Shown piece by piece: positions 1 to 17,553 of a stretch of 48,966 nucleotides of DNA (its first letter is position 1; every line of letters begins with the position of its first letter). The notes beneath the pieces were generated by a model. The model ran no database searches, was not told where the DNA came from, and was given only the letters and a program-made list of their open reading frames with translations. The position numbers and the translations under genes are program-made. The DNA comes from an uncultured Gammaproteobacteria bacterium. Its GTDB lineage: Bacteria; Pseudomonadota; Gammaproteobacteria; PS1; Pseudothioglobaceae. The stretch is taken from assembly GCA_902606745.1 (NCBI GenBank), contig CACLHR010000009.1, forward strand, positions 1-48,966. Direction: 5' to 3'.

Positions 1-719
1 TCCAAAAGAGACTTGTCATAAACCAATGGTGAATTGGCATTTACAACGGTTGTAATTGATGGCTGTTTTAGAAGTGTTTCTTCATCGATGCCTCTACCAA
101 TTCGAACAATTTCAATTGCGTCGAGCATCCTTTCACTTCCAATTGCGTAACCAAAAAGTGGCTTGGTGGAGAGGCGAGCTGCAGCAGACACGGCATGCAA
201 ATGACGCACTTGAACGTCAATATCACAGGGCTCGACAGGGTAGCCACCAAGAGCGTGCACAGTGTTTAGACTTTCTCCTAGCTTTATCAGATTAGAGTAA
301 TCTTCAAAGTTACCTATAATCCTGCCTCTATCTAGGTCAGAAACATTGGGTGCGCTTGAAACCATTGTGTTTATAACAGAGCGACCGCCGACATGAACAT
401 GCCTTTCTTTATGTCTTCCATGAAGCGTAAATTCGCTCGGAGTGGTGGCAATTTTTTCCATGATAAAGTCAGGATCAAATCTAGCTCGCCTGCCGTCACC
501 ATCAATCATGACCCCTTCACGCTTGAGAATTTCAACAGCTCGAGGAGACTGAATATCCATTCCAGTATCACATAATACTTTTAACGAGGCCTCATGAATC
601 GATTCAATCTCGTCCTCTGAAAAAATATTCATGGGCTGAAAAGGATTCTTTTTTTGACCGTAAGGCGCCTGTTGAAAGTTTGTGACCTCTCTGGCAGTTT
701 TGCCTCTTCCTCTTCTCAT
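1..719 (-). CDS. MttB-family (trimethylamine methyltransferase-like) protein, C-terminus outside window
   Basis: About 240 N-terminal residues are visible; the frame is still open at position 1. The family transfers a methyl group from a quaternary or tertiary amine to a corrinoid protein. Support is the basic N-terminus (MRRGRGKTAREV), the segment starting FSEDEIESIHEASLKVL, and NANSPLVYD near residue 230. The complete MttB homologue at 19029-20570 has the matching NVNSPLVYD. The start is set by a 4-base ATGA overlap with the stop of the upstream SnoaL-like gene, which implies translational coupling. It is the last visible gene of the binding-protein/permease operon. The pyrrolysine position of true MttB lies in the missing part, so whether this is a pyrrolysine or non-pyrrolysine member cannot be judged. 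The methyl donor is unknown. Confidence 0.85.
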   Translation of the reverse strand, partial: MRRGRGKTAREVTNFQQAPYGQKKNPFQPMNIFSEDEIESIHEASLKVLCDTGMDIQSPRAVEILKREGVMIDGDGRRARFDPDFIMEKIATTPSEFTLHGRHKERHVHVGGRSVINTMVSSAPNVSDLDRGRIIGNFEDYSNLIKLGESLNTVHALGGYPVEPCDIDVQVRHLHAVSAAARLSTKPLFGYAIGSERMLDAIEIVRIGRGIDEETLLKQPSITTVVNANSPLVYDKSLL

Positions 720-1723
720 TTAATTGTCTCTTTTATCTGAGCTAAAATATCTACACCCTGTTGATTCCAGAAATGTAAAAAATCGATAAATATCCAATTC
801 TCGGATAACTTATCACCTTCCCGTCGATACATATCTATAACACGCATGTCAACAGGTTTGGCTTTTGTAGGTATTCCCATATACTCACCTGTAGGTGTCA
901 AGGTAAGATTTGGCCAACCAAAAAAACCACCGAATTTTCCTTCAGCAAATCTACAAAGATGGCCATTAAATATACGATCTGTAAAAGCAGCACGAAACGG
1001 CCCCGAATGTTGCTCAGCATAACGCTCTATTGTGTACGTTGCCCCGATACCTGCAGGGCCCCACCAGATCATATCTTCATGCCAGCTTCTTCTAAGTTCT
1101 TCAACTAGGGGTAGTTTTTTTGGATCTTTCCAATTCTTCAGATCATTGATCATGAAATCTATTGAAGCTAGAGTTTTTTCACCTTCTTTGGGGTCCTGTT
1201 CTTCAAACATCACACCATCATTTGTCATTGGTCCTGGCTGTACCAAATGTGCTGCAGTTTGAGTTGGAAATGGACGTAATCCCACTTGAATCATAAGATG
1301 AGGAATGTCAAAGAACATTGCTGTTTCAGTGATCTTTCCACCTTCTACCTTATTAAACTCACAGTATCGCAAAAATGCCATCTTTCCTGATGGAGTAATC
1401 CCTAACCATTCATTGTCAAATAGGCCCATCAAGTGACCCATTGAGGTGACCCATATAGATTCAGAACCATCAATTTCATTACAACCTGCCATGAAAATAT
1501 CCATACGACGTTGCATATGACGAAAAGCATGACGTAGTGGTTGCCAAAATAATTCTGACACTGCCTTAGCACTAGATTGCTCATTGAACGGATGAAACCC
1601 ACGCCAGATATAATGAACATCTAAGTATCGTTCCATTACTTTAGTAATGTCGTTTTTTGATGCTGTATCTAGCTCTTGATAATAATTTAAAACTAACTGT
1701 TTCTCAACTTGATAGCTGCTCAT
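716..1723 (-). CDS. Tandem SnoaL/NTF2-like protein (335 aa)
   Basis: Two SnoaL-like (NTF2-fold) domains lie in tandem. This fold is used by small cyclases, dehydratases, isomerases and hydrolases. The N-terminal half has YIWRGFHPFNE and a GxMAFLRYCEF strand. The C-terminal half has DMIWWGPAG, FGWPNLTLTPTGEYMG and ENWIFIDFLHFW. The second half closely matches the SnoaL-like proteins at 5203-6183 and 13851-14336. I chose the ATG at 1723 because GAGGT lies about 10 bases upstream and it follows the permease stop by 22 bases. An in-frame GTG at 1762 would add 13 residues and overlap the permease gene. The stop overlaps the MttB-like start. Its position between permease and methyltransferase argues for a catabolic enzyme, but the reaction is unknown. 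Confidence 0.8.
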   Translation of the reverse strand: MSSYQVEKQLVLNYYQELDTASKNDITKVMERYLDVHYIWRGFHPFNEQSSAKAVSELFWQPLRHAFRHMQRRMDIFMAGCNEIDGSESIWVTSMGHLMGLFDNEWLGITPSGKMAFLRYCEFNKVEGGKITETAMFFDIPHLMIQVGLRPFPTQTAAHLVQPGPMTNDGVMFEEQDPKEGEKTLASIDFMINDLKNWKDPKKLPLVEELRRSWHEDMIWWGPAGIGATYTIERYAEQHSGPFRAAFTDRIFNGHLCRFAEGKFGGFFGWPNLTLTPTGEYMGIPTKAKPVDMRVIDMYRREGDKLSENWIFIDFLHFWNQQGVDILAQIKETIK

Positions 1724-1745
1724 TGATTGGTTTACCTCGTCAAAA

Positions 1746-2627
1746 TTATCCCTTAACGGCACCAGCCGTTAAACCACTAACAAGCTGACGCTGAAAGAAC
1801 ATAACCAAAATAAATAACGGAACTACAGCAGAGACAACTGCCGCAACTGCAAACATCACATTACCCTCTGTTTGAGTTGTTCCCATAAAGCTATTTATTT
1901 TAGGAACCATGGTTTGATTTTCCTGAGATAGCAACATTGCAGTAATAGCAAAATCATTGTAAGCCAAAAGGAATGAAAAGAGTCCAGCTGTAATTACTCC
2001 TGGCCACATAATAGGAATTATGACATTCTTAAATGCTTGGAACTGGGTGCATCCATCCACTTTAGCGCTTTCATCCAATTCTTTTGGAATTTTTTGAAAA
2101 AATGAGTGCAACATCCACAAGGTAAATGGTTGATTTATTGCGACTAAAACAATGATGGTAGTTGGCAGGATTCCCCATATGTTCCACTGAAAAAATGGTA
2201 ATAAATAACCTGAAACTAATGTGATTGGCGGTAATGCGCGGAAAATAAGCGCGATAATTAATAGCCAAAATGCATAACGAAAACCAGAGCGTGATAAAGC
2301 ATAGCCACCGAGTGTCGCAATGGTTAATGAAGTAAGTACAGTAAAAAAGCAGACTATGCCTGTATTACGAAAAGCTCTCCAAAACTCTTCCTGTATCCAT
2401 GCACCGTCGTAGCCCGCACCTGTAAAAGCTTTACCATAGACAACCTGTGTCCTCGCACCTGAAATTGCATTTGTCCAGTCTGCCTTTGAGAAAAAATCAA
2501 GCTCTACCTTGAACGATCCCCAAAATGTCCATAAAAATGGAAAAGCCGCCAAAATAAACCAGAGCAGAACAAATCCATATATCAATATTTGAAGCCCTAA
2601 TGGTTTTTTTATTTGGCTGGAAGACAT
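1746..2627 (-). CDS. ABC transporter permease, CUT1 (MalG-like) family
   Basis: This 293-residue inner-membrane permease belongs to the carbohydrate uptake-1 type. It has an N-terminal membrane segment (residues about 13-35), a periplasmic stretch, and five further hydrophobic segments. The cytoplasmic EAA loop that docks with the ATPase reads ESAKVDGCTQFQAF, with a Cys where Ala is common. The start has AAGGGA upstream, and only 4 bases separate it from the stop of the partner permease. With that partner, the binding protein at 3750-4979 and the ATPase at 14357-15409 it completes one importer. CUT1 systems carry sugars, polyols and glycerol phosphates; the ligand here is not known. Confidence 0.92.
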   Translation of the reverse strand: MSSSQIKKPLGLQILIYGFVLLWFILAAFPFLWTFWGSFKVELDFFSKADWTNAISGARTQVVYGKAFTGAGYDGAWIQEEFWRAFRNTGIVCFFTVLTSLTIATLGGYALSRSGFRYAFWLLIIALIFRALPPITLVSGYLLPFFQWNIWGILPTTIIVLVAINQPFTLWMLHSFFQKIPKELDESAKVDGCTQFQAFKNVIIPIMWPGVITAGLFSFLLAYNDFAITAMLLSQENQTMVPKINSFMGTTQTEGNVMFAVAAVVSAVVPLFILVMFFQRQLVSGLTAGAVKG

Positions 2628-2631
2628 ATAA

Positions 2632-3657
2632 TTATCCCTTTGGGTTGAATTCGCGCCAAGTCCTAACTAGAACTGGAGCCAGAAGTATAGAGACGCCAAT
2701 AATTGTTAAAACTGATGTAGTTGCTGCTGAAGAAAGCAGACGTGTCTCACCCCCAAGGTCATTATAAATAATCCAAGAAAGGGAGGTTGCATGGGCCTCT
2801 GCATGAAATCCAATTATAGGTTCGAACACGCGGAAATTATCCATCAGCTGCATTAAAGCCACAAAAGCCACCAATGGCACTAAATGAGGAATAACGACAT
2901 GGAAAATCTGCTGAAAACGGGTTGCTCCATCAATCATCGCTGACTCAAGTGTCTCCTTTGGTACAGTCTGAAGTCCAGCATAAAAAACAATGAAGGCAAA
3001 AGGAGCTGCATGCCAAATACCATAAATAATTAATGTAACCCATGTTAATCCTGTAGAGGCCTTGAGCGATAAGTCAGGGTTTTCGAGTAAAACCTGAAGC
3101 CCTGTTCCAATAATGCCTCGAGAATCAATCATCCAAAACAAGATGAGTGAACCAATCAAAGGCGTTACAATCATCGGCAGAAGAGAGAAAAATATCATCA
3201 GCCCTTTCAAGCGCTGATGCAGTGAATTTACAGCTAAAGCAATTAAAAATCCGACTAATATAACCAAGGGCGTCACTACAAAGGTGAACGTCAATGTAAA
3301 TCCCATGGCACGATAAAATGGAAGATTCTTAAGGGTGGAAAAAAAATCACCCAAGTCAGAACTGCCTCTCCACATCTCACCAACCTCTGTAATTGCAAGG
3401 TGGCCTCTGTCAAAATAGATTCCGAGTCCAGCCCATTGACCTAAAGGCTCAGCTTCATACAATTCCTGAGTTAACGTGTGATCAATTTGCGTTTGAGAAG
3501 TACAACCAAATGGATCGCAGTTTTCAACAGTTATTAAAACCTTATCGTGAGGCACATGAAAGGACTGCGATACCACTGAAACTAGTGGCAAGGCTATAAA
3601 CAAAAACATTGCCATGGCAGTGGGTAAAAAGAACCAAAAGAATGTCTTGTGTTTCAT
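2632..3657 (-). CDS. ABC transporter permease, CUT1 (MalF/UgpA-like) family
   Basis: This 341-residue permease is the partner of the MalG-like protein. After the first membrane segment (residues about 8-30) there is an extra-cytoplasmic stretch of roughly 80 residues containing a Cys pair (ENCDPFGCTSQ) before the core membrane segments. That layout recalls MalF, though the loop is shorter. The EAA loop reads ESAMIDGATRFQQIF. The gene follows the binding-protein gene after a hairpin that can act as a partial terminator, so it is probably expressed at a lower level. The family assignment is firm; the substrate is not. Confidence 0.92.
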   Translation of the reverse strand: MKHKTFFWFFLPTAMAMFLFIALPLVSVVSQSFHVPHDKVLITVENCDPFGCTSQTQIDHTLTQELYEAEPLGQWAGLGIYFDRGHLAITEVGEMWRGSSDLGDFFSTLKNLPFYRAMGFTLTFTFVVTPLVILVGFLIALAVNSLHQRLKGLMIFFSLLPMIVTPLIGSLILFWMIDSRGIIGTGLQVLLENPDLSLKASTGLTWVTLIIYGIWHAAPFAFIVFYAGLQTVPKETLESAMIDGATRFQQIFHVVIPHLVPLVAFVALMQLMDNFRVFEPIIGFHAEAHATSLSWIIYNDLGGETRLLSSAATTSVLTIIGVSILLAPVLVRTWREFNPKG

Positions 3658-3693
3658 CGAAGTTTACAAAATTAGTGTAGTTACTATATTACA

Positions 3694-3723
3694 GAAAAAA
3701 AGAGGGGTGTGTAACACCCCTCT
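3694..3723 (-). terminator. Rho-independent terminator/attenuator between binding protein and permeases
   Basis: On the minus strand a perfect 10-bp stem (AGAGGGGTGT with ACACCCCTCT, positions 3701-3723, 3-base loop) is followed by seven T. It lies 27 bases after the binding-protein stop and 37 bases before the MalF-like start. In ABC operons this arrangement lets the binding protein be made in excess, with readthrough supplying the permeases. Confidence 0.85.
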
Positions 3724-3749
3724 GGAGGAAATCACCTAACGAAAAAAAC

Positions 3750-4979
3750 TTATAGGTAACCTTTTTCTGTCGCAGCTGCTGTATATGCCGCTTCTACATC
3801 AGCTAGAGCAGTAACCGCATCTTCCTTGCCCATCATAAAGTCAATTATCTCAGCACCTAACGCTGAATGTAGTAGACCTTGATAAGACACCATCGGATAT
3901 GGTTTTGTGCCCATTTGAGCTGCAGCGACTACACCACGAGATGCAGTAGTTGGCTCATAGCCGTCGATTAACCATACAGCAAGAAGTGACGTTTCATCAT
4001 TCAACATTTCAGGACGAACTGCGTGCTTCATTGCAAGGAATGTTGCCTCAGCATCTTCGTCAGAAATATTCTTGGCTACAGTCCAACCATCCCACCAAAG
4101 TGTTGCAGCCGGAATAGAACCACCGCCAACAGTCATAGGACCAGCTATATCTGTATTACTAGCTACTTCTGCCGCTACTTCATCACTCTTAAGTGGACCA
4201 ACACGTGATCCCCACATATTCATAATGGCAACGTTACCTGCTTTCCATTCAGCACTAGTTGCATTTGAATCATGTGTAAGGTAGTCAGGGTTCATAAAGT
4301 GTGACAATGCTTTCATCATATGTAATGCATCAACACCAGCTTGGTTGTTAATTGAAACTTTAGCTGTACCTGGCTCAAAGAATTCACCACCATGTCCAAT
4401 GTACATGTTTACAAACTCTTCAGCTATATTCCAGCCCGCTTTGTAAGCACCACCAACTGGATTCTGCATTAAACCCATATCACGGATTATTGCCGCAGCA
4501 ACCAACATCTCTTCATATGTTGTTGGTGGATTTAGGCCAGCTTGTGCAAGTATGTCAGCACGGAAAACCAAGTGCTGAGCATTAGCCATAAAGGCTACAG
4601 CCATTATATTGCCATCCACAGTTACTAACTGATGTTTCAGTATATCTTGCCCATGCTTAGCAACAAGGTCATCTAATGGTCTTATGACATCATCGACCAT
4701 TAATGCAACAATAGATGAATTAGCAATTATTGCTGTTGTATATTCTGCCGGGTTGCCGGTCATACCTTGGACATTTATTTTTTGATGGTCTGCGGTCAAG
4801 TTTTTCGTAACCTCGACACCACCACCTGCGCATTCTGCCGCCGCTGATCCTACTGCTTGAATTGCAGGAAATTCGTTACCAACGATACTAACACGTCCTC
4901 CGTCGATACCACAACCTGCCCAAACACTAGAAGAGAGGGCTGCAAATGCTATAGCAAATGCTATCTTTTTATTTAACAT
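3750..4979 (-). CDS. Extracellular solute-binding protein, family 1 (CUT1 type)
   Basis: This 409-residue periplasmic protein captures the ligand for the importer. Residues 1-21 are a clear signal peptide (LNKK, a hydrophobic run, then a cleavage site after SSVWA). The mature region has the two-lobe family-1 pattern, including VDGNIMAVAFMANAQHLVFR, a GNVAIMNMWGSR segment and a Trp-rich stretch TLWWDGW typical of sugar-binding sites. The start has GGGGAG seven bases upstream. It is the first gene of the operon behind the LacI-type operators at 5121-5190 and has a leader of about 150 bases. Trp residues could pack against a sugar ring or a quaternary ammonium group, so they do not settle the ligand. 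Confidence 0.9.
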   Translation of the reverse strand: MLNKKIAFAIAFAALSSSVWAGCGIDGGRVSIVGNEFPAIQAVGSAAAECAGGGVEVTKNLTADHQKINVQGMTGNPAEYTTAIIANSSIVALMVDDVIRPLDDLVAKHGQDILKHQLVTVDGNIMAVAFMANAQHLVFRADILAQAGLNPPTTYEEMLVAAAIIRDMGLMQNPVGGAYKAGWNIAEEFVNMYIGHGGEFFEPGTAKVSINNQAGVDALHMMKALSHFMNPDYLTHDSNATSAEWKAGNVAIMNMWGSRVGPLKSDEVAAEVASNTDIAGPMTVGGGSIPAATLWWDGWTVAKNISDEDAEATFLAMKHAVRPEMLNDETSLLAVWLIDGYEPTTASRGVVAAAQMGTKPYPMVSYQGLLHSALGAEIIDFMMGKEDAVTALADVEAAYTAAATEKGYL

Positions 4980-4994
4980 AAAGTTCTCCCCGTT

Positions 4995-5011
4995 ATTTAT
5001 AGTCTATAAAT
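4995..5011. repeat. Near-perfect palindrome in the binding-protein leader
   Basis: ATTTATAG and CTATAAAT flank a single T, ending just upstream of the ribosome binding site of the binding-protein gene. With a one-base centre it is more likely a protein site or an mRNA dimer or end structure than a simple hairpin. Its function is unknown. Confidence 0.4.
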
Positions 5012-5120
5012 TTAACACTAGAACCTTGCTAATTACGAAATATCATGTTTCTAACTATCAAGGTTTTCAGGGTATTACCCCCGAGGTGTTACATCGCAAT
5101 AAAAATCAAGAAATCAAATC

Positions 5121-5136
5121 TTGCATACGATTGCAA
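5121..5136. promoter_or_regulatory. LacI-type operator, proximal (binding-protein operon)
   Basis: TTGCATACGATTGCAA is an imperfect palindrome with the central CG typical of LacI-family operators. It lies three bases downstream of the -10 box, covering the expected transcription start, where a bound repressor would block initiation. The same sequence recurs before the ATPase operon at 15454-15469. The likely regulator is the LacI-family protein at 10734-11765. Confidence 0.8.
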
Positions 5137-5139
5137 ATT

Positions 5140-5167
5140 ATTATAACACAGGCAAATACTTTTGCAA
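5140..5167 (-). promoter_or_regulatory. Sigma70 promoter of the binding-protein operon
   Basis: On the minus strand, TTGCAA (5162-5167), a 16-base spacer and TATAAT (5140-5145) form the promoter, with an extended -10 TG one base upstream. It is sandwiched between the two operators. The block CCTGTGTTATAAT is repeated almost exactly before the ATPase gene. Confidence 0.75.
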
Positions 5168-5174
5168 GAACTTT

Positions 5175-5190
5175 ATGCATTCGTATGCAA
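5175..5190. promoter_or_regulatory. LacI-type operator, distal (binding-protein operon)
   Basis: ATGCATTCGTATGCAA shares the half-sites and central CG of the proximal operator. Its centre is 54 bp from the proximal one, upstream of the -35 box. This spacing, about five helical turns, would allow two dimers on one DNA face or a small loop. It begins just 12 bases past the stop of the SnoaL-like gene at 5203. Confidence 0.78.
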
Positions 5191-5202
5191 TAAAAAGTTA
5201 TA

Positions 5203-6183
5203 CTACTTCTGCCAAGTCGGCAATGGGTCATATCCCAACTGCAATAAAACATGTGGAACATCGACGAACACCCAATTTTCCACTAAAAGCTCATTTTCAC
5301 GCCGCCACCAATCACAGACACGCATTAAAACCCGTTCGTAGGTTGGACCTTGCCCTAGGAATGGTTTGACGTTAATACCAGTTAAGGATGGCCAGCCTCC
5401 TGAACAGGTGTAATTACCCTCACCAAATCTTGTGAAATGTTCTGTGAAGCCGTTATTTTTTGATCCGCCTGACCACCCTTCAAACTGGGATTCAAACGGA
5501 ACCTGAAATGAAGCGAATTCGTCCACACCAACAAAGGAACCAAACGCACCCGGTCCATACCACATCATGTTCCTATGCCAATAGGGTCGCCACGCCTCAT
5601 CCTTTGTCGCTAATTTGGCAAGCATGTCAGTAACAATTTGATAACTTAGCTGCCCCTCAGCAGGGTCAGCGTCCCCGATGAGGACACCGTCCTGTGATGC
5701 AGGCCCCTGTATCAGCCCTGTGTAACCGCGCGAATACCCGGGACCCATATCCAAAGGCCATTGATTACAGGCAATCATCAGTTCTGGAATGTCGAGATAT
5801 ATATAGCTTTCAACAGCTTGACTATTCTGGATGCGGTGGAATTCGCCATAGCGTAAGTAACACAGTGTTTTCGTCGCGCTAAGACCAATCCAATCTCTTG
5901 CAAATTGCCCGACATAATAGCCCATTGAGCTGATCCAATTTTGTCCCTCGAACTCTCCAACCATGAAAATATCATCACGCCGATAAAGCCCTTCGAATGA
6001 ATGTTGCAGTGGTAAGAGAAATTCATTGAGGTAGGCATCTGCACCTGTTAGCTGATTGAACGGATGGACAACATTAATGTCGGCATCCTGAGCGAAAAAA
6101 CTCGCGGCATTAGAGGAGAAATCGCCCGGATGGCTCAAGGCATCTGCATATGTCAAATAGAGTGAACGATCATATATCGACAT
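5203..6183 (-). CDS. Tandem SnoaL/NTF2-like protein (326 aa)
   Basis: This two-domain SnoaL-like protein is the nearest relative in the window of the one at 716-1723. Shared features are an N-terminal HPFNQLTGADAYLNEFLLPLQ with a GxxxxLRYGEF strand, and a C-terminal MMWYGPGAFG, GGWPSLTG and VENWVFVDVPHVLLQLGYD. The common length and order show duplication of an already tandem ancestor. AAGGT precedes the start. It is the last gene of the ATPase-led operon, ending just before the promoter and operators of the second operon. Family members act as cyclases, dehydratases, hydrolases or ligand-binding proteins; I cannot assign a reaction. Confidence 0.8.
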   Translation of the reverse strand: MSIYDRSLYLTYADALSHPGDFSSNAASFFAQDADINVVHPFNQLTGADAYLNEFLLPLQHSFEGLYRRDDIFMVGEFEGQNWISSMGYYVGQFARDWIGLSATKTLCYLRYGEFHRIQNSQAVESYIYLDIPELMIACNQWPLDMGPGYSRGYTGLIQGPASQDGVLIGDADPAEGQLSYQIVTDMLAKLATKDEAWRPYWHRNMMWYGPGAFGSFVGVDEFASFQVPFESQFEGWSGGSKNNGFTEHFTRFGEGNYTCSGGWPSLTGINVKPFLGQGPTYERVLMRVCDWWRRENELLVENWVFVDVPHVLLQLGYDPLPTWQK

Positions 6184-6243
6184 GATTTTTACCTTTTAAA
6201 TTGAATAAATTTTAGAGCATCTCAGGAAATAAATCACTTATAA

Positions 6244-6954
6244 CTAGGTACGCGACTTTTCAAAATCCTCCCATGCACTTTTAAAATCATCAAAACTAAA
6301 TCCTGTTTTTTCTGCTGGATCTAATATGAGCCTTTCTGAAGCAAACAACTTGTGAACTGCATCTTTCAAAATAGGTATTACTTCATTAGGAATTACAACA
6401 GCTCCATGACGATCTGCATGCACTAGGTCTCCTGGTGAGACTTTAATACCAAAGACACTAACAGGCGTATCTATCTCACGAACATGAACAAAGCCATGGC
6501 TGGGGCCAATTGAACCAGCGACAACTGGAAAGTCTTCTGCAAGATCTCCGAGATCTCTAACTACACCATTAGTCAGAACTCCTGATAGCCCAAAACCTTT
6601 ATGAACCTTAGTATTTATCTCACCCCAGTATGCGCCAATACATTCAGGATAATCCACATCCTCAATGACAACTACAGCTGGACCATCAACTTTTGACATG
6701 TAACGATAGTAATTCATTCTGCGCACTTTAATTATGTCTTGGTTTTCTTTTGGAGGTTCTAAGGCTGCAATTTTTGCTGTTTTAGCAAAACCAACCAAAG
6801 CGCTGCCCTCTGGGTCTGAAGACACCATAGTGCCTCTTGTAAATTGTGAAAAACCACGCTTACCTTGTGCTACTTCTATAGCATTACACACTGTTGGAGT
6901 GTCTACTGATCGAAGAAGCGCAAGTAATTCAGAATCTATCAATTCATGAGCCAT
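6244..6954 (-). CDS. RraA-family lyase/aldolase-like protein
   Basis: This 236-residue protein matches the RraA/4-hydroxy-4-methyl-2-oxoglutarate aldolase family. It has AYWGE (residues 108-112), TNGVVRDLGDL with the Arg133-Asp134 metal/substrate pair, and GDLVHADRHGAVVIP near the C-terminus. Such enzymes cleave or decarboxylate short oxo-acids, often giving pyruvate or oxaloacetate. It is longer than E. coli RraA, the RNase E inhibitor, and sits among catabolic genes, so a lyase role is more likely. The start lies inside the hydrolase gene (16-base overlap) and has GGAGG about 10 bases upstream. It may perform a late C-C cleavage step of the pathway (inference). Confidence 0.82.
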   Translation of the reverse strand: MAHELIDSELLALLRSVDTPTVCNAIEVAQGKRGFSQFTRGTMVSSDPEGSALVGFAKTAKIAALEPPKENQDIIKVRRMNYYRYMSKVDGPAVVVIEDVDYPECIGAYWGEINTKVHKGFGLSGVLTNGVVRDLGDLAEDFPVVAGSIGPSHGFVHVREIDTPVSVFGIKVSPGDLVHADRHGAVVIPNEVIPILKDAVHKLFASERLILDPAEKTGFSFDDFKSAWEDFEKSRT

Positions 6955-7631
6955 GTTTTCAATACCTCCGTGGTTTTTGCTGGTTGCTCTAATGTAGGCA
7001 AATGGCCAGCATTCTTGATTACCTCTAACTTTGAATTGCTAATTATATTATGCATCAATTCATGCTTCTCTATGGGACATAATTTGTCTTCTGAGCCACA
7101 AATTATCAGTACAGGCATATCCAGAACTTTAAGGTTGTTTTGTTGATCACTCCTCCCTTGAAGAGCTCTTGATTGATTAATAAAGACTCTAGGACCTAAA
7201 GAAAGTGCCATCTCCATACAGATATTTAGAATAATATCTTGATTTTCACTACTCGCTAAATAGTTGGGTTTCATCTCATCACGAATAACATTTACTAATT
7301 TTCCTGACAAAGCATCACTAATTTGAGGCTCACGTTTAAGTTTTACTTCCTCTAATTCAGCTAGTGGATTAGTATCAATTAGCACTAATTTTTCAATACG
7401 CTTTGGATCTTGTGCACATATCTCCATAGCAACAATACCACCCATTGAATGCCCAACAAGACAAAATTTTGGCGGTGCATTACTTAAGACATCCGCTGCC
7501 AAATCACTAATATTGTCCTGTTTAGAAATATCTGCAATATGCACTGATCTCTTTGAGACAAACTCTTCTATTTGTGGAGCGAAAATGCGTTCATCACACA
7601 TCATTCCAGGAATCATTACCAGAGGTGTCAT
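6939..7631 (-). CDS. Alpha/beta hydrolase
   Basis: This 230-residue alpha/beta-fold hydrolase has an oxyanion region near MIPGMMCDERIF and a nucleophile elbow VGHSMGG with Ser62. A SEDK turn carries the probable acid, and the catalytic His210 is in NAGHLPTLEQP. The short size and PGMMCDER motif resemble small carboxylesterase or lactonase-type hydrolases of catabolic operons. Its start overlaps the stop of the MetE-like gene (ATGA), and its own end overlaps the RraA-like gene. It likely hydrolyses an ester, lactone or enol-type intermediate; the substrate is unknown. Confidence 0.85.
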   Translation of the reverse strand: MTPLVMIPGMMCDERIFAPQIEEFVSKRSVHIADISKQDNISDLAADVLSNAPPKFCLVGHSMGGIVAMEICAQDPKRIEKLVLIDTNPLAELEEVKLKREPQISDALSGKLVNVIRDEMKPNYLASSENQDIILNICMEMALSLGPRVFINQSRALQGRSDQQNNLKVLDMPVLIICGSEDKLCPIEKHELMHNIISNSKLEVIKNAGHLPTLEQPAKTTEVLKTWLMN

Positions 7632-8761: not shown

Positions 8762-8792
8762 TTATTGCTCCTTGAATAAAGTATTAGAATGT

Positions 8793-9758
8793 CTATCCTC
8801 TCCAAGTCGAACCTGCAGGATCATCGGTGTTGGTGACACGGAAAAGACTTGACTTTTGAGAATTAGCGGGGAAGAGTTGATGCTCTAAACTAGGTGGTAC
8901 AGAACAAGTGTCGCCGGGTCCAAGGACAGTATTGCCTCCATCCCAACTTAGATTCCAGTGTCCTTTCATGATCATGAGTACTTCATGGCGACTGGTTGAA
9001 TACATATTTTTTGTACTTGAATCAGCAGTCAGAAAATCAACCTCAAAACCAGGACGATCCATTAATAAACCGTCTTCTCCAATCACTTTTACTGGCAAAG
9101 AGTCAGCTAATCCTGTTAAAACAGAATATCGAGCAACATAATCTCGAACAACGTCTTCAGAAGGAATTTCAGGAAAACTCTTTAAATCCTCTTCTGTTAG
9201 TAATGGAACTGGATTAACATTTTCAGGGAGAGATTCACCTTTTTTGATATCATACAATAAGCCATTTTCACCCAAAATGAGTCCATATTTTTTTGCCTCC
9301 TCAATTACCTGTGGAGCCCATGTCACTCCACCACCAGCATCATCACCACCGAGTATCGCCATAAGCATACCGTAATCATTTCCGATATTTTCGAAAGCCC
9401 GAAACATTCCAGTAGGTACATTAAATATATCCCCTTCTTCAACAATTACCTCTCCAGCAGTGCCCCACCTGCCCCAAAAAAATCGCCAGCGGCCTTCCAA
9501 AACAAAAAATACCTCAGCTGTTGTATGTGAATGCAATGAGTTAATGCATTTAGGTGGTTGTCCAGCAGCACCTATATTAAAACCTGGTGTTTCAGAAATA
9601 TGTACATGTTGATCAGGACTTTCTGACACTCCTGGGCCGATAATCGTGAAGTTATCTTTTTGATCTGAGCCAGGCGTATGTGCATCAATAAATGCCGTTT
9701 TGCAAGGTTTCAAGTCATCATAGCGAACAATGTGGGATTCCATTTCTTGAGCCGTCAT
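8793..9758 (-). CDS. Double-cupin protein
   Basis: This 321-residue bicupin has its first cupin (about residues 60-135) carrying HSHTTAEVFFVLEGRW with His76, His78 and Glu82 as metal ligands. The usual motif-2 His is replaced in PTGMFRAF. The second cupin (about 235-310) has RHEVLMIMKGHW, lacking the paired His, but keeps a motif-2 type His293 in PSLEHQLF. Gentisate-dioxygenase-like and isomerase bicupins have comparable layouts. Its job could be oxygenation, isomerisation or lyase chemistry on a pathway intermediate. AGGAT precedes the start; the gene follows the SnoaL-like gene by 4 bases. Confidence 0.78.
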   Translation of the reverse strand: MTAQEMESHIVRYDDLKPCKTAFIDAHTPGSDQKDNFTIIGPGVSESPDQHVHISETPGFNIGAAGQPPKCINSLHSHTTAEVFFVLEGRWRFFWGRWGTAGEVIVEEGDIFNVPTGMFRAFENIGNDYGMLMAILGGDDAGGGVTWAPQVIEEAKKYGLILGENGLLYDIKKGESLPENVNPVPLLTEEDLKSFPEIPSEDVVRDYVARYSVLTGLADSLPVKVIGEDGLLMDRPGFEVDFLTADSSTKNMYSTSRHEVLMIMKGHWNLSWDGGNTVLGPGDTCSVPPSLEHQLFPANSQKSSLFRVTNTDDPAGSTWRG

Positions 9759-9762
9759 TTTT

Positions 9763-10734
9763 TTATCCTGTTTTTAGAATAATTTGTTTCCAAATTGCGG
9801 TCTCATCAAATACAATGTATTCACGACGTAGACCCCAAGGGCCAAATTCTGCATGAGAAATACCCATCAAATATAACTCTGCACCGCTTGGTTCCCCAAA
9901 CAAACCCAAACCATCATGCTTCCCTTTTAAAGTCCATCTGACTGCAGCCCTTGGAGGCATCATTGAATCTGCACGTCCTATCTGATGTTCAATCGCAAAA
10001 GATGCACTTGGAAAAGATGATCTCAAGCCCATCCAAAAGGTTTCAGCATTCACATAAGAGTGGCCTGTAACGCCACTTGGATACTCCAATTGACAGGCAC
10101 GGTCATACTCTTGACGAATAATTGATATGCCAGAATTCATAATACGATTAAGAATATCACTGTACTTTTCGCCCCATTCGTTTTTATTTCCTTTTCCGTT
10201 ATAGGGTCCGGGTTGATCAATTGAGGGTGAAAATGGCCGTACGCAGTTATCAGGACCACCCTCACGATCAATTTCCTGTCTGGCAAAATCCTCAGGCGTC
10301 CATCCCATTTGAAGAACCATAGAACCACGGTCGCGTGTAAGCCACTCATCGTTGATTTGATTATTAATTGCATGACAGTCGGCAATAACTCGATAGGTCA
10401 ACTTTTTACCGGTTGCTTTACCGAACTGGCCGTCACCCAAATGTGTTGCTGTAGATATAATACGATGTGAAGATAACATACCTTCTTCAGGGGAGCCCGA
10501 CCAAATAACATCTTCACCAATAAGTTTCCTATCTGGGAACTCTAATAATGTGGCTTCAGTCGCTGCAATTACACCCTCATTGCCAATAATGATGGACGAA
10601 GGTGTTCTCATTACAACATCGGACGCATAATACTCGTGCAACTTTTCTACACCATTCTCCTCTTCCCAGATCTCATAGGTAATGCCGTTTATATAATCAG
10701 GAAAATTTTCAAATTTTGAATTAAAACCTTTCAT
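9763..10734 (-). CDS. Tandem SnoaL/NTF2-like protein (323 aa), divergent type
   Basis: Two SnoaL-like domains are present. The first is a typical ester-cyclase-like SnoaL domain: EKLHEYYASDVVMRTPSSI, a SSHRIISTATH strand, and NDEWLTRDRGSMVLQMGW with the conserved Glu-Trp and Asp. The second contains a GHSYVNAETFWMGLRSSFP helix and a RAAVRWTLKGKHDG strand. Similarity to the other three SnoaL-like proteins in the window is lower, so it is probably a functionally distinct step. Its ATG overlaps the LacI-family stop by one base (TAATG), showing coupling. The reaction is unknown. Confidence 0.78.
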   Translation of the reverse strand: MKGFNSKFENFPDYINGITYEIWEEENGVEKLHEYYASDVVMRTPSSIIIGNEGVIAATEATLLEFPDRKLIGEDVIWSGSPEEGMLSSHRIISTATHLGDGQFGKATGKKLTYRVIADCHAINNQINDEWLTRDRGSMVLQMGWTPEDFARQEIDREGGPDNCVRPFSPSIDQPGPYNGKGNKNEWGEKYSDILNRIMNSGISIIRQEYDRACQLEYPSGVTGHSYVNAETFWMGLRSSFPSASFAIEHQIGRADSMMPPRAAVRWTLKGKHDGLGLFGEPSGAELYLMGISHAEFGPWGLRREYIVFDETAIWKQIILKTG

Positions 10735-11765
10735 TATTCATTTTCCCCAGATGCGTTATTTGAAATTCTTGTTGAACCGCGCATGATAAGTGGTCCATCT
10801 ATTTGTATTCGACGTGGCTTCGTGTCCTGATCTTGAATGCTTTCAAGAATAATTGAAACAGTTTCTGCGACCATACGATTCGCAGGCTGTCTAACAGTTG
10901 TTAAATCATAAGCAGGCCATGATGCAATAGGAACATCGTCATAACCAACAACGGAAACGTGTTCTGGTATTTTTAATCCCAGTTCAAAACGAATAACGTC
11001 CATTACTGCAAATGCCATGTCATCACTTGCTACAAAAACTGCATCGGGTATTTCGTCATTGGTAAACATTTTGCGTGCAGCCTGTCGAGCATCGTCTTGA
11101 ATAAAATTACCAACCTCGCGAGCATAAAGAGATCTACCTTGCTTTTTCAACTCATCAACAAAGCCACTTTCTCTATCACGCTGAGTTGAGGCACCTTCCC
11201 AGCCAGAAATATAAGCTATTCGCTTGTGACCTCCGGCAATCAAGAATTGCGCAACTTGTTTTCCACCAAGAAAGTTGTCTGAAGTAACAACTGAAAGCCT
11301 ATCGTCATCTTGTGTACGGTTAAATAAAATTACAGGAACCCCTGCAGCATTACATCGACTTGCCAGGTTTGAAGACATTGAAACAGAAGCAAGAATAATA
11401 CCATCAACCTGATAATCAAGAATTTCATCAACAATATCATCAATGTTTCCTGCTGTTTTTGCGACCATAAAAACCAATACATGGTAGCCTTTTTTTTGTA
11501 AAGCATTAGAAAGGAGCTCTAACGCTTCCGGATAAAAATAATTGTCTAGATGTGCAACAACGAGACCAATGATTCTTGACTTTCCTGTAATTAATGATCG
11601 AGCCAAGATATTTGGACGATAGCCGAGCTTTGAAGCAGCTTTACGAACCTTTTCATTTGTTTTTTTTGAAACAGAGGCGCCAGGCGTGAAAACCCGTGAA
11701 ACTGCGGACTGACTCACGCCAGCTAGTTTTGCCACTTCTAGTGAGGTTATCTTTTTAGTTGCCAT
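10734..11765 (-). CDS. LacI-family transcriptional regulator
   Basis: This is a full-length LacI/GalR-type repressor of 343 residues. The N-terminal HTH and hinge read SLEVAKLAGVSQSAVSRVF followed by KLGYRPNILAR. A periplasmic-binding-protein-like effector domain follows (IIGLVVAHLDNYFYPE, FVASDDMAFAVMDVIR, VSVVGYDDVPIASW). I prefer the ATG at 11765, which overlaps the SDR stop as TGATG; a TTG one codon upstream is possible. The gene lies inside the operon it probably controls. The two operator pairs at 5121-5190 and 15454-15523 have the central-CG palindrome LacI-family proteins recognise, making it the likely regulator of both units. Family effectors are usually sugars or nucleosides. Confidence 0.93.
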   Translation of the reverse strand: MATKKITSLEVAKLAGVSQSAVSRVFTPGASVSKKTNEKVRKAASKLGYRPNILARSLITGKSRIIGLVVAHLDNYFYPEALELLSNALQKKGYHVLVFMVAKTAGNIDDIVDEILDYQVDGIILASVSMSSNLASRCNAAGVPVILFNRTQDDDRLSVVTSDNFLGGKQVAQFLIAGGHKRIAYISGWEGASTQRDRESGFVDELKKQGRSLYAREVGNFIQDDARQAARKMFTNDEIPDAVFVASDDMAFAVMDVIRFELGLKIPEHVSVVGYDDVPIASWPAYDLTTVRQPANRMVAETVSIILESIQDQDTKPRRIQIDGPLIMRGSTRISNNASGENE

Positions 11766-12532
11766 CAATCTGCCGTCCAGCCTCCATCAACCATCAATGC
11801 CGAACCTGTGATCATTGCAGATGCATCAGACGCTAGAAATACTACCGCTCCCATGATATCTTCAACCTCACCTACTCGACCAAGCTTAATCTTTTCTTCA
11901 ATCCAACTTCTATGCTTAGGGTTATTGAAAGTGCTTTGCGTTAATGGTGTACGAATAAATGTGGGACAAATTGTATTGACTCGGATATTATATGGCCCCC
12001 ACTCAATTGCCATAGCTTTGGTAAAACCTTCTACTGCATGCTTGGATGCAGAATATACGGCTCTATCAATACCTCCTACATGGCCCATCTGGGATGAAAT
12101 ATTGATCAAAGAGCCTGGCTTCTTGTTTTGAATTAACCCCTTCGCCACGGCCTGAGTCAAAAAATAAGCTCCACGAAGATTGACATTCATTACATCATCA
12201 AAATCCTCTTCATTCGTATCCTTGGAAGGAGTGTGACGAGCCGAACCAGCACTATTCACCAAAACATCAAATGGTCCGTTAGTCAAAATCACTTCTTGAG
12301 AGGCTTTAACATCAGAAACATCTAAAGTTATGGCTTCTGCACTCAAACCTTTTGCTTGAATAGCCTCCAAAACTTTATTGAGATTATTACTATTCCTGGC
12401 AGATAAACATACATGTGCACCTGCCTCAGCCAAAGCAACAGCACATCCTAAACCAATTCCAGATGAAGCGCCAGTGATGATTGCTTTACGACCATTAAGC
12501 GACATAGATGGAGTTTCAGGTAATTCAATCAT
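11765..12532 (-). CDS. Short-chain dehydrogenase/reductase (SDR)
   Basis: This 255-residue classical SDR has a nucleotide-binding [10 protein letters not shown] (residues 20-29), NSAGSARH, an active-site Ser in [17 protein letters not shown] supplying Tyr and Lys, and a C-terminal [12 protein letters not shown]. Such enzymes oxidise or reduce secondary alcohols with NAD(P). The gene overlaps the histidinol-dehydrogenase-like gene by ATGA and the regulator by TGATG. Pairing of an SDR with a HisD-like dehydrogenase recalls sulfopropanediol catabolism, where several dehydrogenases act on a diol. Here it may oxidise a hydroxyl of the imported compound (inference). Confidence 0.9.
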
Positions 12533-13839
12533 TCTGCAGCTTCTCCATAAGGTATGTCTTTTCCACCATAACGACGAACCCTAATATTGGCCTGTTCAGC
12601 GTGCCCAACAAATGATTCCAATATACAAAGACGAGAACAATACTCTCCAATCTTGGTGGCCGCTTCATCAGTGGTTATTTCCTGATAGCTATGTGTTTTG
12701 AGGAATTTACCAACCCACAGTCCTCCAGTGTAACGACCCGCTTTTTTAGTAGGCAAAGTGTGATTGGTTCCGATTACTTTATCACCATTTGATACGTTGG
12801 TTCTGGGTCCTAAAAACAGTGCACCATAAGAATGCATATTATCCAAAAACCAGTGGTCTCGGTCGGTCATAACTTGAACATGCTCAGAGGCAATATCGTT
12901 GGCAACATTTAGCATCTCTTCATAACTATCACAAAGAATGACTTCACCGTAATCTTTCCAACTTACTGAGGCAGTATTCGCAGTTGGAAGAATCTTTAAT
13001 ATTCTATCTATCTCAGAAAGGGTGTCTTCTGCAAGTTTTTGGTTATTAGTCACCAAAAAGGCCGGAGAATCATATCCATGCTCAGCCTGACCAAGTAAAT
13101 CAGTTGCACATAGTTCAGCATCAACTGTGTCGTCGGCTATTACCATGGTTTCTGTTGGTCCGGCAAGTAAATCGATACCTACGCGTCCGAATAATTGTCT
13201 TTTGGCTTCAGCGACATATGCATTTCCCGGACCTACCATCATGTCAACAGACTTTATAGTCTCAGTGCCAAGCGACATTGCACCAACCGCTTGAATGCCT
13301 CCGATTACATAAATCTCATGAGCACCACCAAAATGCATGGCTGCAATCACAGCTGGATTTGGCTCACCCTTAAATGGTGGAGTACAAGCAATAATTCTGG
13401 GAACTTTTGCAACACTTGCTGTTACCACTGACATATGCGCTGAGGCTACCATTGGGAATTTGCCTCCAGGCACATAGCAACCGACAGATTGCACGGGTAT
13501 GTTTTTGTGCCCGAGAATTACTCCAGGCATGGTTTCAATTTCTATGTCTAACATTGAATCTCGCTGGGATTGAGCAAATTTCCTTATTTGAGATTGAGCA
13601 AACTTGATGTCTTCAATGTCACGTTTTGATACTTGCTTTATTAGATTTTCAATTTCGGCTGAACTCAACTTAAAAGATGTTGGGTTGTAATTATCAAACT
13701 TTATAGAGAAGTCTCTGACAGCCTTATCACCTCTTTCTGCAATTGCTTGAAGTGTATCTTCGACGATCTTACTAACCTTTGCATCATCTACTGCTCGGTC
13801 TGCTTCATCTTTGCCTTTCTTTAAATATTTAATAGTCAT
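12529..13839 (-). CDS. Histidinol dehydrogenase-family enzyme (HpsN-like), likely catabolic
   Basis: This 436-residue protein has the full histidinol dehydrogenase fold. Metal ligands Gln251 and His254 are in QAEHGYD, Asp353 in NGDK, and His413 near the C-terminus. The catalytic Glu319-His320 pair is in ASEH, followed by GTNHTLPT. These enzymes oxidise a primary alcohol to a carboxylate in two NAD-dependent steps. No histidine biosynthesis gene is near, and the operon is catabolic, so it resembles the family branch containing sulfopropanediol dehydrogenase HpsN more than HisD. The substrate could be a different polyol or amino alcohol. It lies 11 bases after the small SnoaL-like gene and overlaps the SDR. 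Confidence 0.85.
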
Positions 13840-13850
13840 AATGCTCTCAC

Positions 13851-14336
13851 TTACTCAGGTTTTGGAGGATTTTTTTCGCCACGATCGTAGACCTCCCAGC
13901 CTTGACCGTTAAATACGTCAACGCCAAGCTGTGCCAAAATACTTGGAAAGTCAACCGTTACCCAGTTGTCAGTTATGAGACCCTCTTTAACTTCCCAAAA
14001 ATCAGTGTAGTGAATTTTCACTCTTTTGTTAGTTGGCTCAACACCCATAAATTCACCGCTATGGATTGCGTCAATGTGTCCAAAACATGAAGCCCATTCA
14101 CCATCAACTAGCCATCTATCTGTTTTATATATTCGATCTGAAAAAGCAGCTCTAAGCGGTAGCTGCCAATTGTTACGGAACTCTTCAAGGTTGTTTTTGG
14201 TGCCGCAGCCCTGATTACCCATCCAACGAAAGTCTTTATGGAAGTACTTTCCCATATCATTAGATTTAGCAATCAAAGCTTCTTCCATTGCCCTCACTAC
14301 AGCAAGTGTTTTTTTTGATTTCTCGTCATAACTCAT
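13851..14336 (-). CDS. Single-domain SnoaL/NTF2-like protein (161 aa)
   Basis: This single SnoaL-like domain matches the C-terminal half of the tandem proteins at 716-1723 and 5203-6183. Shared elements are F-W-M-G at [30 protein letters not shown], a YTDFWEV strand and [20 protein letters not shown]. The same FRAAF-DRIF and EYMGI blocks occur in the 716-1723 protein. GGAG precedes the start. Sitting directly after the ATPase gene, it could be an enzyme or a ligand-binding subunit. A short C-terminal tail rich in Pro and charged residues follows the domain. Confidence 0.8.
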
Positions 14337-14356
14337 ATTTTTTATATCTCCAACCT

Positions 14357-15409
14357 TTAGTTCTCTAACATCTCTCCATTTTCCTTACTGAACAGCAAGC
14401 AAAGATTTCCTGGAATATGTGCAATAACCATAGAACCTATTTCAGCACTGTAGTTTTTCTCAGATTTGACGGAAACGACTTCGCCTCCAGCCTTAATGGA
14501 AACCATCGTCGCATCACCCAAAAGCTCCACAGAAAAAGCAGGGCCACTAATCTCGCCTTCACTTTCAACAATGGATGCATCTTCAGCACGGAACCCGAGA
14601 GTTACCTCACCAGAATGCTTTTTATTTAATCCTGTGATTCTGACGTTTTCACCAATAAAGATGCCATCATTAATTGAACCATGCATCAAATTCATAGCAG
14701 GAGAACCAATAAAGCCTGCAACGAAACTGTTGGCAGGTTTGTTATAGATTTCTTTTGGAGTTCCAATCTGTTGAATAGCGCCAGCATTCATAACAACAAC
14801 TCTATCAGCAAGTGTCATGGCCTCTATCTGATCATGGGTAACGTAAATGGTTGTAACACGTAATTCATGCTGTAGATTTTTTATTTGTGCACGAGTAGAG
14901 ACTCGCAATTTAGCATCAAGGTTCGATAATGGCTCATCCATCAAAAACACAGTAGGCTCTCGAACAATTGCTCTAGCCAGGGCAACACGTTGACGTTGAC
15001 CACCAGATAATTCGGATGGCTTGCGATGCAAAAAGTCATCAAGCTCAACCATTCCAGAGGCACGCATTACTCTCTCCTCATGAAGCTCTTTATCAATCTT
15101 TCGTACCTTTAGTGGAAATCGAATATTTTCGTAAACATTCATGTTTGGATAGAGCGCATATGACTGGAAAACCATTGCAACATCTCGGTCTTTTGGTTCC
15201 AATCCATTAACGATTTTTCCATCGATAATTACTTCACCCTCAGTAACATCTTCTAACCCTGCAATCATTCTCATAGTAGTCGTCTTACCACAACCTGAAG
15301 GGCCAAGCAACACAAGAAACTCTTCATCATGAATAGTAAGGTTGAAGTTATCTACACCAACAAAACTACCCCATCGCTTTGTAAGATTTTTTAATTGAAT
15401 TTCAGCCAT
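14357..15409 (-). CDS. ABC transporter ATP-binding protein, MalK/UgpC type
   Basis: This 350-residue ATPase energises the CUT1 importer. Walker A GPSGCGKT is at residues 36-43, the Q-loop at Gln82, signature [14 protein letters not shown] from 134, Walker B VFLMDEP at 154-160 and the H-loop in VTHDQ. After about residue 235 comes the MalK-type regulatory OB-fold region, containing GFRAED. The gene is first in its unit, 9 kb from the binding protein and permeases, but both units share the same promoter-operator design. It is the only ABC ATPase in the window, so it probably serves those permeases. Confidence 0.93.
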
Positions 15410-15453
15410 AGTTTCTCTGAGTATTATGCACCTGAAGCATTAGATATAAAATT

Positions 15454-15469
15454 ATGCATACGATTGCAA
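15454..15469. promoter_or_regulatory. LacI-type operator, proximal (ATPase operon)
   Basis: ATGCATACGATTGCAA differs from the 5121-5136 operator by one end base. It starts three bases downstream of the -10 box, the same offset as in the other operon, and would cover the transcription start of the ATPase-led unit. Confidence 0.8.
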
Positions 15470-15472
15470 ACA

Positions 15473-15478
15473 ATTATA
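15473..15478 (-). promoter_or_regulatory. Extended -10 promoter of the ATPase operon
   Basis: On the minus strand TATAAT is preceded by TGC, an extended -10. The upstream block CCTGTGCTATAAT is nearly the same as in the binding-protein promoter. No good -35 hexamer is seen at the usual spacing, so the extended -10 may carry recognition. Confidence 0.7.
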
Positions 15479-15507
15479 GCACAGGCCTTATTTATTATAG
15501 TAAGTAT

Positions 15508-15523
15508 TTGCATTCGTATGCAA
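15508..15523. promoter_or_regulatory. LacI-type operator, distal (ATPase operon)
   Basis: TTGCATTCGTATGCAA is a palindrome with one mismatched pair. Its centre is 54 bp from the proximal operator, exactly as in the binding-protein operon. It lies between the ATPase promoter and the stop of the GlxA-type regulator. Confidence 0.8.
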
Positions 15524-16521: not shown

Positions 16522-16551
16522 TTCGTATAATGTGAAATTTATAACGGAAAA

Positions 16552-16580
16552 AGTATAGCATAGCCTTTGTTCAGCAGTAA
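16552..16580 (-). promoter_or_regulatory. Candidate promoter of the GlxA-type regulator
   Basis: On the minus strand TTACTG (16575-16580), a 17-base spacer and TATACT (16552-16557) with an extended -10 TG lie about 30 bases upstream of the ATG at 16521. The placement supports that ATG as the true start. Confidence 0.5.
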
Positions 16581-16640
16581 CATATTTAAATCTCAATTTA
16601 TTTTGTCTAAAATGAAACCTCTATATTTGGAGAAATTACT

Positions 16641-17552: not shown

Positions 17553-17553
17553 A

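Follow-up and report, generated by a model that had tools for sequence, protein, structure and literature searches.

A cluster of 15 open reading frames (ORFs) on the minus strand of contig CACLHR010000009.1, from an uncultured gammaproteobacterium of the family Pseudothioglobaceae, appears on balance to encode a LacI-repressed regulon for a small polyhydroxylated compound, akin to a sugar, sugar acid or cyclitol, which is taken up by a CUT1 transporter and then oxidised in a non-phosphorylating manner. The whole stretch analysed (48,966 nucleotides; hereafter the window) corresponds to contig C9 in a 63-contig, 1.36 Mb assembly with a completeness of 82.5%, and the cluster lies at positions 716-15409. 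The compound is most likely methylated in some cases, and the pathway most likely ends in a retro-aldol cleavage. Four features carry this reading and can be observed directly: the gene content of the cluster, the retention of catalytic residues, a shared operator, and wide co-conservation.

Gene organisation and promoters

The cluster is arranged in two units (15409→5203 and 4979→716). Ten of the 14 intergenic gaps are overlaps or measure at most 22 bases, and one further gap is 31 bases, in agreement with the initial annotation, which had most genes overlapping or within about 30 bases of each other. Families were assigned by Pfam and NCBIfam searches. Unit 1 begins with a CUT1 ATPase of the UgpC/MalK type (14357-15409; PRK11650, 443.9 bits, above the cut-off of 432), followed by a single-domain SnoaL protein (SnoaL_s, 13851-14336; PF07366, E 2e-15), a HisD-like dehydrogenase (12529-13839; PF00815), a short-chain dehydrogenase/reductase (SDR, 11765-12532; PF13561), a LacI-family regulator (10734-11768, listed with a TTG start; PF00356 and PF13377), a tandem SnoaL protein (SnoaL_d2, 9763-10734; PF07366), a bicupin (8793-9758; PF07883), a core-MetE-like protein (7628-8761; PF01717), an alpha/beta hydrolase (6939-7631; PF00561), an RraA-like aldolase/decarboxylase (6244-6954; PF03737) and a second tandem SnoaL protein (SnoaL_d3, 5203-6183). 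Unit 2 encodes the solute-binding protein (SBP, 3750-4979; PF13416, E 1e-13), the two CUT1 permeases A (2632-3657) and B (1746-2627; both PF00528, BPD_transp_1) and a third tandem SnoaL protein (SnoaL_d4, 716-1723; PF07366), which, judging from its orthologue at locus L008, probably starts at the ATG at 1723 rather than at the GTG at 1762. The searches thus support the complete CUT1 importer, the LacI regulator, the four SnoaL-family proteins (three tandem, one single-domain) and the HisD-like, SDR, cupin, MetE-like and RraA-like enzymes that had been proposed from the sequence, with the reservation that SnoaL_d3 falls below the Pfam gathering cut-off (PF12680/PF07366, E 8.6e-5); by BLAST, its relatives group with those of SnoaL_d4.

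Each unit is preceded by an exact pair of TGCAWWCGWWTGCA, with starts 54 bp apart and a TATAAT between the two copies. Before unit 1, the upstream copy is at 15509-15522 (TGCATTCGTATGCA on the plus strand) and the downstream copy at 15455-15468 (TGCATACGATTGCA on the plus strand), with a putative minus-strand -10 box at 15473-15478; before unit 2, exact matches at 5176-5189 (upstream) and 5122-5135 (downstream) enclose a putative minus-strand -10 box at 5140-5145. The two promoter stretches are identical at 65 of 91 bases, and the common promoter and operator design reported for the two units is thereby upheld. These four sites are the only exact copies of TGCAWWCGWWTGCA in the whole 1.36 Mb assembly. 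When up to two mismatches are allowed, the window holds four sites against a chance mean of 3.3, which is no excess, and the operator evidence therefore rests on exact matches. A LacI protein and a palindromic, CG-centred operator at the promoter are both present; LacI is predicted to bind there, and its putative target sequence can be written TGCATACGAATGCA.

Conservation and distribution of the gene set

Relatives of the bicupin were confirmed in at least 565 stretches of a one-genome-per-species collection, of which the best 80 were studied together with three plasmid loci (83 loci). The best 80 are mostly alphaproteobacterial, with the addition of the gammaproteobacterial group of the window, and many marine and root-associated bacteria share the gene set. 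Many of the 83 loci are cut by contig ends, and 57 loci on genome contigs have full flanks. The counts that follow depend on a codon-scored, home-made gene call (not a standard gene finder) and on identity thresholds, and a gene absent from a locus can still be present at another place in the same genome.

Across the 83 loci, the cupin is present in all by construction, the SDR in 76, LacI in 74, the HisD-like enzyme in 69, SnoaL_d2 in 64, the hydrolase in 63 and RraA in 53, followed by the permeases (51 and 50), MetE (50), the ATPase (48), the SBP (46), the SnoaL_d3/d4 group (45) and SnoaL_s (35). The corresponding numbers at the 57 full-flank loci are 54 for LacI, 53 for HisD, 52 for the SDR, 46 for the hydrolase, 43 for permease A, 40 each for RraA and SnoaL_d2, and 36 for MetE. 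HisD, SDR, LacI, hydrolase and cupin occur together at 44 of these loci. A comparison of gene order places the orthologous CUT1 permease pair beside the enzymes at 42 of the 57, and both units are therefore conserved together, as the initial annotation's single system implied.

Within the family of the window, the cupin is confined to the window's own genus: it was found in 21 of 83 genomes, these being 21 of the 29 of the same genus (two as partial matches) and none of the 54 of other genera. An even draw of 398 genomes from the phylum contained it in 19 (the window's own included), 15 of which belong to one family. The closest named relative among the matches listed is Candidatus Thioglobus sp. 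AH-558-A21, with a cupin 97% identical, and no cupin relative was present in the viral contigs searched. In a midpoint-rooted cupin tree, whose bootstrap had not settled, the 13 sequences from SUP05 cluster together (100/99); the tree gives no direction for a transfer between the SUP05 genus and Alphaproteobacteria.

Additional genes in relatives encode a GMC oxidoreductase, a GST, an S-adenosylmethionine (SAM) methyltransferase and a HAD hydrolase. A Marivita-type variant (L023, L025, L027, L037, L049 and L058) adds a major facilitator superfamily (MFS) gene, an extra alpha/beta hydrolase, GNAT and SpoIIAA-like proteins and two short families; neither short family has an NCBIfam match, and the one at 6623-7180 in L037 has no Pfam match.

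The operator marks one regulon

The exact operator is present in 36 of 99 loci, with 46 matches in total. A slightly different 99-locus set gave 54 matches, including eight own-genome duplicates (L100-L103), against 0.05 expected from base composition, and none of 47 control palindromes built by reshuffling the half-site letters exceeded two matches in this set. In 38 whole genomes, reached from 40 loci, there were 59 forward matches and none for the reversed control, with at least one exact operator in 32 genomes.

Ten operator-flanking stretches were chosen by hand rather than drawn at random, one of which (L145) is the known lone cupin of L087. Among the nine further sites, five front homologues of window genes. 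The operator at L143 has CUT1, SnoaL_s and HisD genes on one side and SnoaL_d4 and an amidohydrolase on the other; that at L144 fronts a MetE-like gene and an HpcH/HpaI aldolase; those at L146 and L147 each front SnoaL_d4 alone; and that at L148 fronts SnoaL, CUT1, HisD and SDR genes. In genome G120, the cupin, the MetE and aldolase genes, and the CUT1 and HisD genes lie apart from one another, each with its own operator. The lone cupin of L087 also carries the operator; the neighbours examined there and at L070 (seven proteins) are unrelated and offer no clue to the reaction. Since unlinked cupin, MetE/aldolase and SnoaL genes likewise have the operator in front of them, it marks one regulon, and it provides a handle by which regulon members can be listed genome by genome.

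The HisD-like enzyme and its SDR partner

The best matches of the HisD-like enzyme in the PDB are structures of HpsN (8v35, E 7e-108); histidinol dehydrogenases follow at a distance (E 8e-75). According to the published work on HpsN, this enzyme carries the motif G-R-Y-A/S-H, in which His126 binds the sulfonate, and HisD carries G-S-A-P-L (PMC11382572). The motif here is G-K-F-P-M, with K, P and M present in 66 of 66 aligned rows and M130 in the position of the sulfonate-binding His126 throughout; twelve of twelve further loci hold the complete motif. For this and the other conservation counts, rows were selected on length and on at least 40-60% identity with the protein encoded in the window. 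Q251, H254, E319, H320, D353, K354, H360 and H413 are likewise kept in all 66 rows, and six of these (Q251, H254, E319, H320, D353 and H413) match the zinc and catalytic residues Gln248, His251, Glu318, His319, Asp352 and His411 given for HpsN. By this published marker, the enzyme is neither an HpsN nor a HisD, and its motif places it in a third class of the HisD family. Neither sulfonate nor histidinol is therefore expected as its substrate. A role in histidine synthesis was rejected because the motif differs, and a second HisD homologue on contig C31 (33% identity) is possibly the biosynthetic one; 2,3-dihydroxypropane-1-sulfonate (DHPS) was rejected as substrate on the His126 marker.

The SDR retains Y160 and K164 in 65 of 65 rows, and its nearest structures are sugar and sugar-acid SDRs; it is closest to 2-deoxy-gluconate and gluconate dehydrogenases and L-xylulose reductase. 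Five of the twelve further loci, all on plasmids, combine the same HisD class with an SDR, a regulator and a tripartite ATP-independent periplasmic (TRAP) transporter, and cupin, SnoaL and MetE are absent from their annotation. An HpcH/HpaI or RraA aldolase lies beside or near the HisD and SDR pair in four of the five (in L094 about 5.5 kb off and on the other strand); at L096 the annotation has no aldolase near the pair. L091 holds HisD and SDR alone, and L088, L092 and L093 have HisD without a directly adjoining SDR. Together, HisD and SDR could convert a terminal diol to a 2-oxo acid, which the aldolase would then cleave.

A HisD paralogue (42-45% identity) is encoded on the opposite strand at L017, L021, L026, L029, L043, L044 and L046, often near an amidase gene; its motif, where readable, is G-R-Y/F-P-L in six of these seven loci, and the copy in L017 is preceded by the operator. 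NAD-related genes adjoin the minimal HisD loci L097 (11435-14902), L099 (13659-17132), L088 (14475-17510) and L094 (12796-14229), comprising nadA, L-aspartate oxidase and nadC in two of them and transhydrogenase subunits in the other two.

Cupin, SnoaL, MetE-like, hydrolase and aldolase proteins

Cupin dioxygenases of the quercetinase or gentisate type have a metal site of two or three histidines and one glutamate, the third histidine lying in motif 2. In the bicupin, H76, H78 and E82 are invariant (84 of 84 rows), as is H53, and H51 is conserved in 83; the third motif histidine of the usual metal site is missing, F119 and R120 standing there in 84 of 84. Its AlphaFold model (predicted local distance difference test, pLDDT, 78.5) has quercetinase, oxalate decarboxylase and salicylate dioxygenase as its nearest folds, all at the level of generic bicupins with TM scores of about 0.4-0.5. 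SnoaL_d2 is modelled with higher scores (pLDDT 95.8) as two NTF2-like domains, for which structure matches reach the superfamily level alone.

The MetE-like protein (377 amino acids) is a single MetE half with an HxC...C motif and an acidic zinc ligand, the features of a core-MetE, and its putative zinc site (H243, C245, E277 and C343) is present in 50 of 50 rows. Methyl transfer looks accessory to the pathway, the MetE gene being present at 36 of the 57 full-flank loci (it may sit elsewhere in the genome, as in G120), although its zinc site is invariant. A SAM-dependent methyltransferase gene lies between the cupin and MetE-like genes in L085 (11031-11654), L095 (15328-15930) and L059; the L085 protein is weakly similar to CpaM, a model of corrinoid-associated methyltransferases.

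The hydrolase keeps its triad S62/D182/H210 in 57 of 57 rows. A conserved Arg-Asp pair is part of the active site of RraA-type 4-hydroxy-2-oxo acid aldolases, and the RraA-like protein has R133/D134 in 53 of 53 rows. L043, L044 and L046 hold an HpcH/HpaI aldolase and no RraA, and the one probably stands in for the other there. The best scores of the amidohydrolase and aldolase found in the regulon of relatives are to models of L-fucono-1,5-lactonase and of HpaI, GarL and rhamnonate aldolases, respectively, both far below cut-off.

MttB-family genes and the carnitine neighbourhood

The initial annotation had placed an MttB-like enzyme within 716-15523. The Pfam and NCBIfam searches place none there: a truncated one lies at the contig edge (1-719, minus strand; PF06253, E 5e-60) and a full one at 19029-20570, with a carnitine module between it and the cluster. 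The edge fragment (239 amino acids) is an MttB N-terminus cut by the contig end, and it starts directly behind SnoaL_d4. A tblastn search with it across the loci (flanks of up to 10 kb) matched just two others, L061 and L076, both of this genus and both with the gene next behind SnoaL_d4; no alphaproteobacterial locus matched. MttB was accordingly rejected as a core part, its edge copy being confined to this genus among the loci searched. No corrinoid-protein gene was recognised among the scanned window ORFs (up to 35.8 kb).

At L008, of the same genus, another ORF takes the place of the edge MttB and by eye resembles a dimethylglycine dehydrogenase. The carnitine module (15559-20570) comprises a GbdR/CdhR-like regulator, a beta-keto acid cleavage enzyme (BKACE) and a carnitine 3-dehydrogenase with a thioesterase domain, followed by the full MttB-family gene; the carnitine dehydrogenase and BKACE genes adjoin the cluster in L008 and L076 as well. 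Further to the right are mostly housekeeping genes, together with an acyltransferase and an MFS gene (ten ORFs, up to 35.8 kb).

Proposed pathway and alternatives

We propose that LacI sits on the two operators that bracket each promoter and would depart once an inducer accumulates. By analogy with HpsN and HisD, the HisD-like enzyme would use NAD+ to remove four electrons from a CH2OH group that adjoins a hydroxylated carbon, giving a carboxylate, and the SDR could convert a secondary alcohol to give a 2-oxo acid, or else form a lactone. Opening or rearrangement of the skeleton may fall to the hydrolase, the cupin and the SnoaL proteins, and with methylated forms of the compound the MetE-like zinc protein would hand the methyl group on to a thiol. 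Finally, RraA, or the HpcH/HpaI aldolase in other genomes, would cleave a 4-hydroxy-2-oxo acid into pyruvate and a small carbonyl compound. The predicted oxidation and cleavage steps are well supported by conserved catalytic residues and by the loci with HpcH/HpaI in place of RraA, and the sugar-acid flavour of the nearest relatives of the SDR and of the below-cut-off lactonase and aldolase scores also speaks for this proposal.

Several observations weigh against it. The analysis names a compound class and no single substrate, and the database relatives of the SBP are weak, SmoF being among those in the PDB. No dehydratase for sugar acids was recognised; unless a SnoaL protein or the cupin takes over that step, a classical non-phosphorylating route would be left incomplete. 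The exact operator is missing from six of the 38 genomes, and four of the nine further operator sites (L149-L152) front no recognisable regulon member. The CUT1 pair is replaced at 11 of the 57 full-flank loci, by a different CUT1 in four, TRAP in three and MFS in four, and no importer of these kinds was recognised in another four; the imported compound may therefore differ between lineages. In L046 a TRAP gene accompanies CUT1. SnoaL genes are wholly missing from eight of the 57 loci. An amidase family is present in nine of the 83 loci, and in L047 and L052 the cluster is followed by genes for LivK/LivH-type transporters; both features hint that relatives of the substrate contain nitrogen.

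Alternatively, two or more unrelated pathways could have come under one regulator, for example a HisD, SDR and aldolase module and a separate SnoaL, MetE and cupin module. We regard this as unlikely, if deserving of real weight: some records do hold HisD and SDR without an annotated cupin, SnoaL or MetE, and plasmid records number 123 for HisD (E 1e-150) against 53 for the cupin (E 1e-5), but the shared operator follows the dispersed members within G120 and 44 of the 57 full loci keep the five-gene core together. A pathway for betaine (trimethylammonium) demethylation, built around methyl transfer by MttB and MetE, is distinctly improbable. The position of the MttB N-terminus directly behind SnoaL_d4 in the window, L061 and L076 would fit this, as would the ability of core-MetE proteins to use methylcobalamin (PMC7005905); however, the edge MttB occurs in no alphaproteobacterial locus searched and is replaced in L008, MetE is missing at 21 of the 57 loci, and the scanned ORFs lack a recognised corrinoid-protein gene. 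The polyol-betaine substrate suggested initially loses its main support because the edge MttB was found in this genus alone and the second MttB stands beside carnitine dehydrogenase and BKACE genes.

Very little probability attaches to degradation of DHPS or another small sulfonate, with the HisD-like enzyme as HpsN and the SDR as HpsO. The HpsN structures are the best matches of the HisD-like enzyme, and the combination of a HisD-family enzyme with an SDR is also the logic of DHPS catabolism (PMC11131964), but the sulfonate-binding His126 is replaced by Met in every row and the cluster holds no recognisable gene for sulfonate cleavage. Moreover, we know of no role for MetE, cupin or SnoaL proteins in DHPS catabolism. 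Equally slight are the chances that the substrate is the C7-cyclitol core found in gadusol or mycosporine sunscreens, in which case HisD would oxidise the C5-CH2OH beside a tertiary hydroxyl, MetE would remove an enol O-methyl group, the cupin would cleave the reductone so formed, the hydrolase would open it and RraA would cleave a tertiary 4-hydroxy-2-oxo acid. Each enzyme class would thereby find a chemically fitting step, RraA-type aldolases act on tertiary alcohols, and the predicted fold relatives of the cupin include quercetinase and salicylate dioxygenase. Against this, nothing ties the cluster to a gadusol or mycosporine substrate, variants without MetE but with an amidase exist, and the cupin is without the usual third metal-site histidine.

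The initial annotation is thus partly confirmed in its observations and partly supported in its interpretation: one coordinated system that degrades a sugar- or polyol-like compound by oxidation and cleavage is supported, MttB as a core part is not, the polyol-betaine substrate loses its main support, and methyl transfer looks like an accessory step. In wider terms, we lean towards an undescribed pathway, probably present in hundreds of marine and plant-associated species, that joins a third functional class of the HisD family with tandem SnoaL, bicupin and core-MetE proteins under one LacI operator and consumes an abundant, unrecognised and often methylated polyhydroxylated metabolite, for which the gadusol/mycosporine C7-cyclitol core would be a long-shot candidate.

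Significance and comparison with known systems

The open-licence PubMed Central literature, as covered by titles and the starts of abstracts in partial listings, with subscription journals mostly outside, contained no description of this gene set, and within that scope the claim of novelty holds. Homarine catabolism was considered and rejected, no link between homarine and SnoaL having been found in the same literature. The occurrence of at least 565 cupin stretches suggests a common compound without a known bacterial sink, and the regulator and SBP could be used for finding the ligand. The HisD subclass suggests a further recruitment of the HisD fold; genes annotated as histidinol dehydrogenase, or loosely counted as DHPS dehydrogenase, may therefore be misread in surveys.

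Non-phosphorylating L-fucose, L-rhamnose and glucarate pathways use fuconolactonase and aldolases of the HpaI, GarL and RhmA types. The present system resembles them in its SDR, CUT1 and LacI components and, in relatives, in a lactonase-like amidohydrolase and an HpcH/HpaI aldolase, but has no recognised dehydratase and adds HisD-like, bicupin, tandem SnoaL and MetE-like proteins. DHPS catabolism in Cupriavidus pinatubonensis and Ruegeria pomeroyi (HpsN, HpsO and HpsP) likewise clusters a four-electron dehydrogenase of the HisD family with an SDR, a transporter and a regulator; the cluster described here differs in its G-K-F-P-M motif without the sulfonate-binding His126, in its CUT1 and LacI proteins, in its SnoaL, cupin, MetE, hydrolase and RraA genes, and in having no recognised sulfonate-cleaving gene. 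SnoaL and IdmH polyketide cyclases and the lasalocid epoxide hydrolase (PDB 3rga), which we take to be Lsd19, share the NTF2-like fold, and the two-domain 3rga was matched over its full length, but identity is low (10-20%) and the context here is catabolic. The core-MetE methionine synthases of Dehalococcoides CBDB1 are also half-length MetE proteins with the HxC...C zinc motif; the protein here belongs to a putative catabolic regulon and shares Glu as its acidic ligand with tandem MetE, whereas CBDB1 has Asp (PMC7005905). Finally, glycine-betaine demethylation by MtgBCD has been described in SUP05 (PMC12478193), and MttB-family genes lie near the cluster in the same clade, but here they stand outside the conserved regulon.

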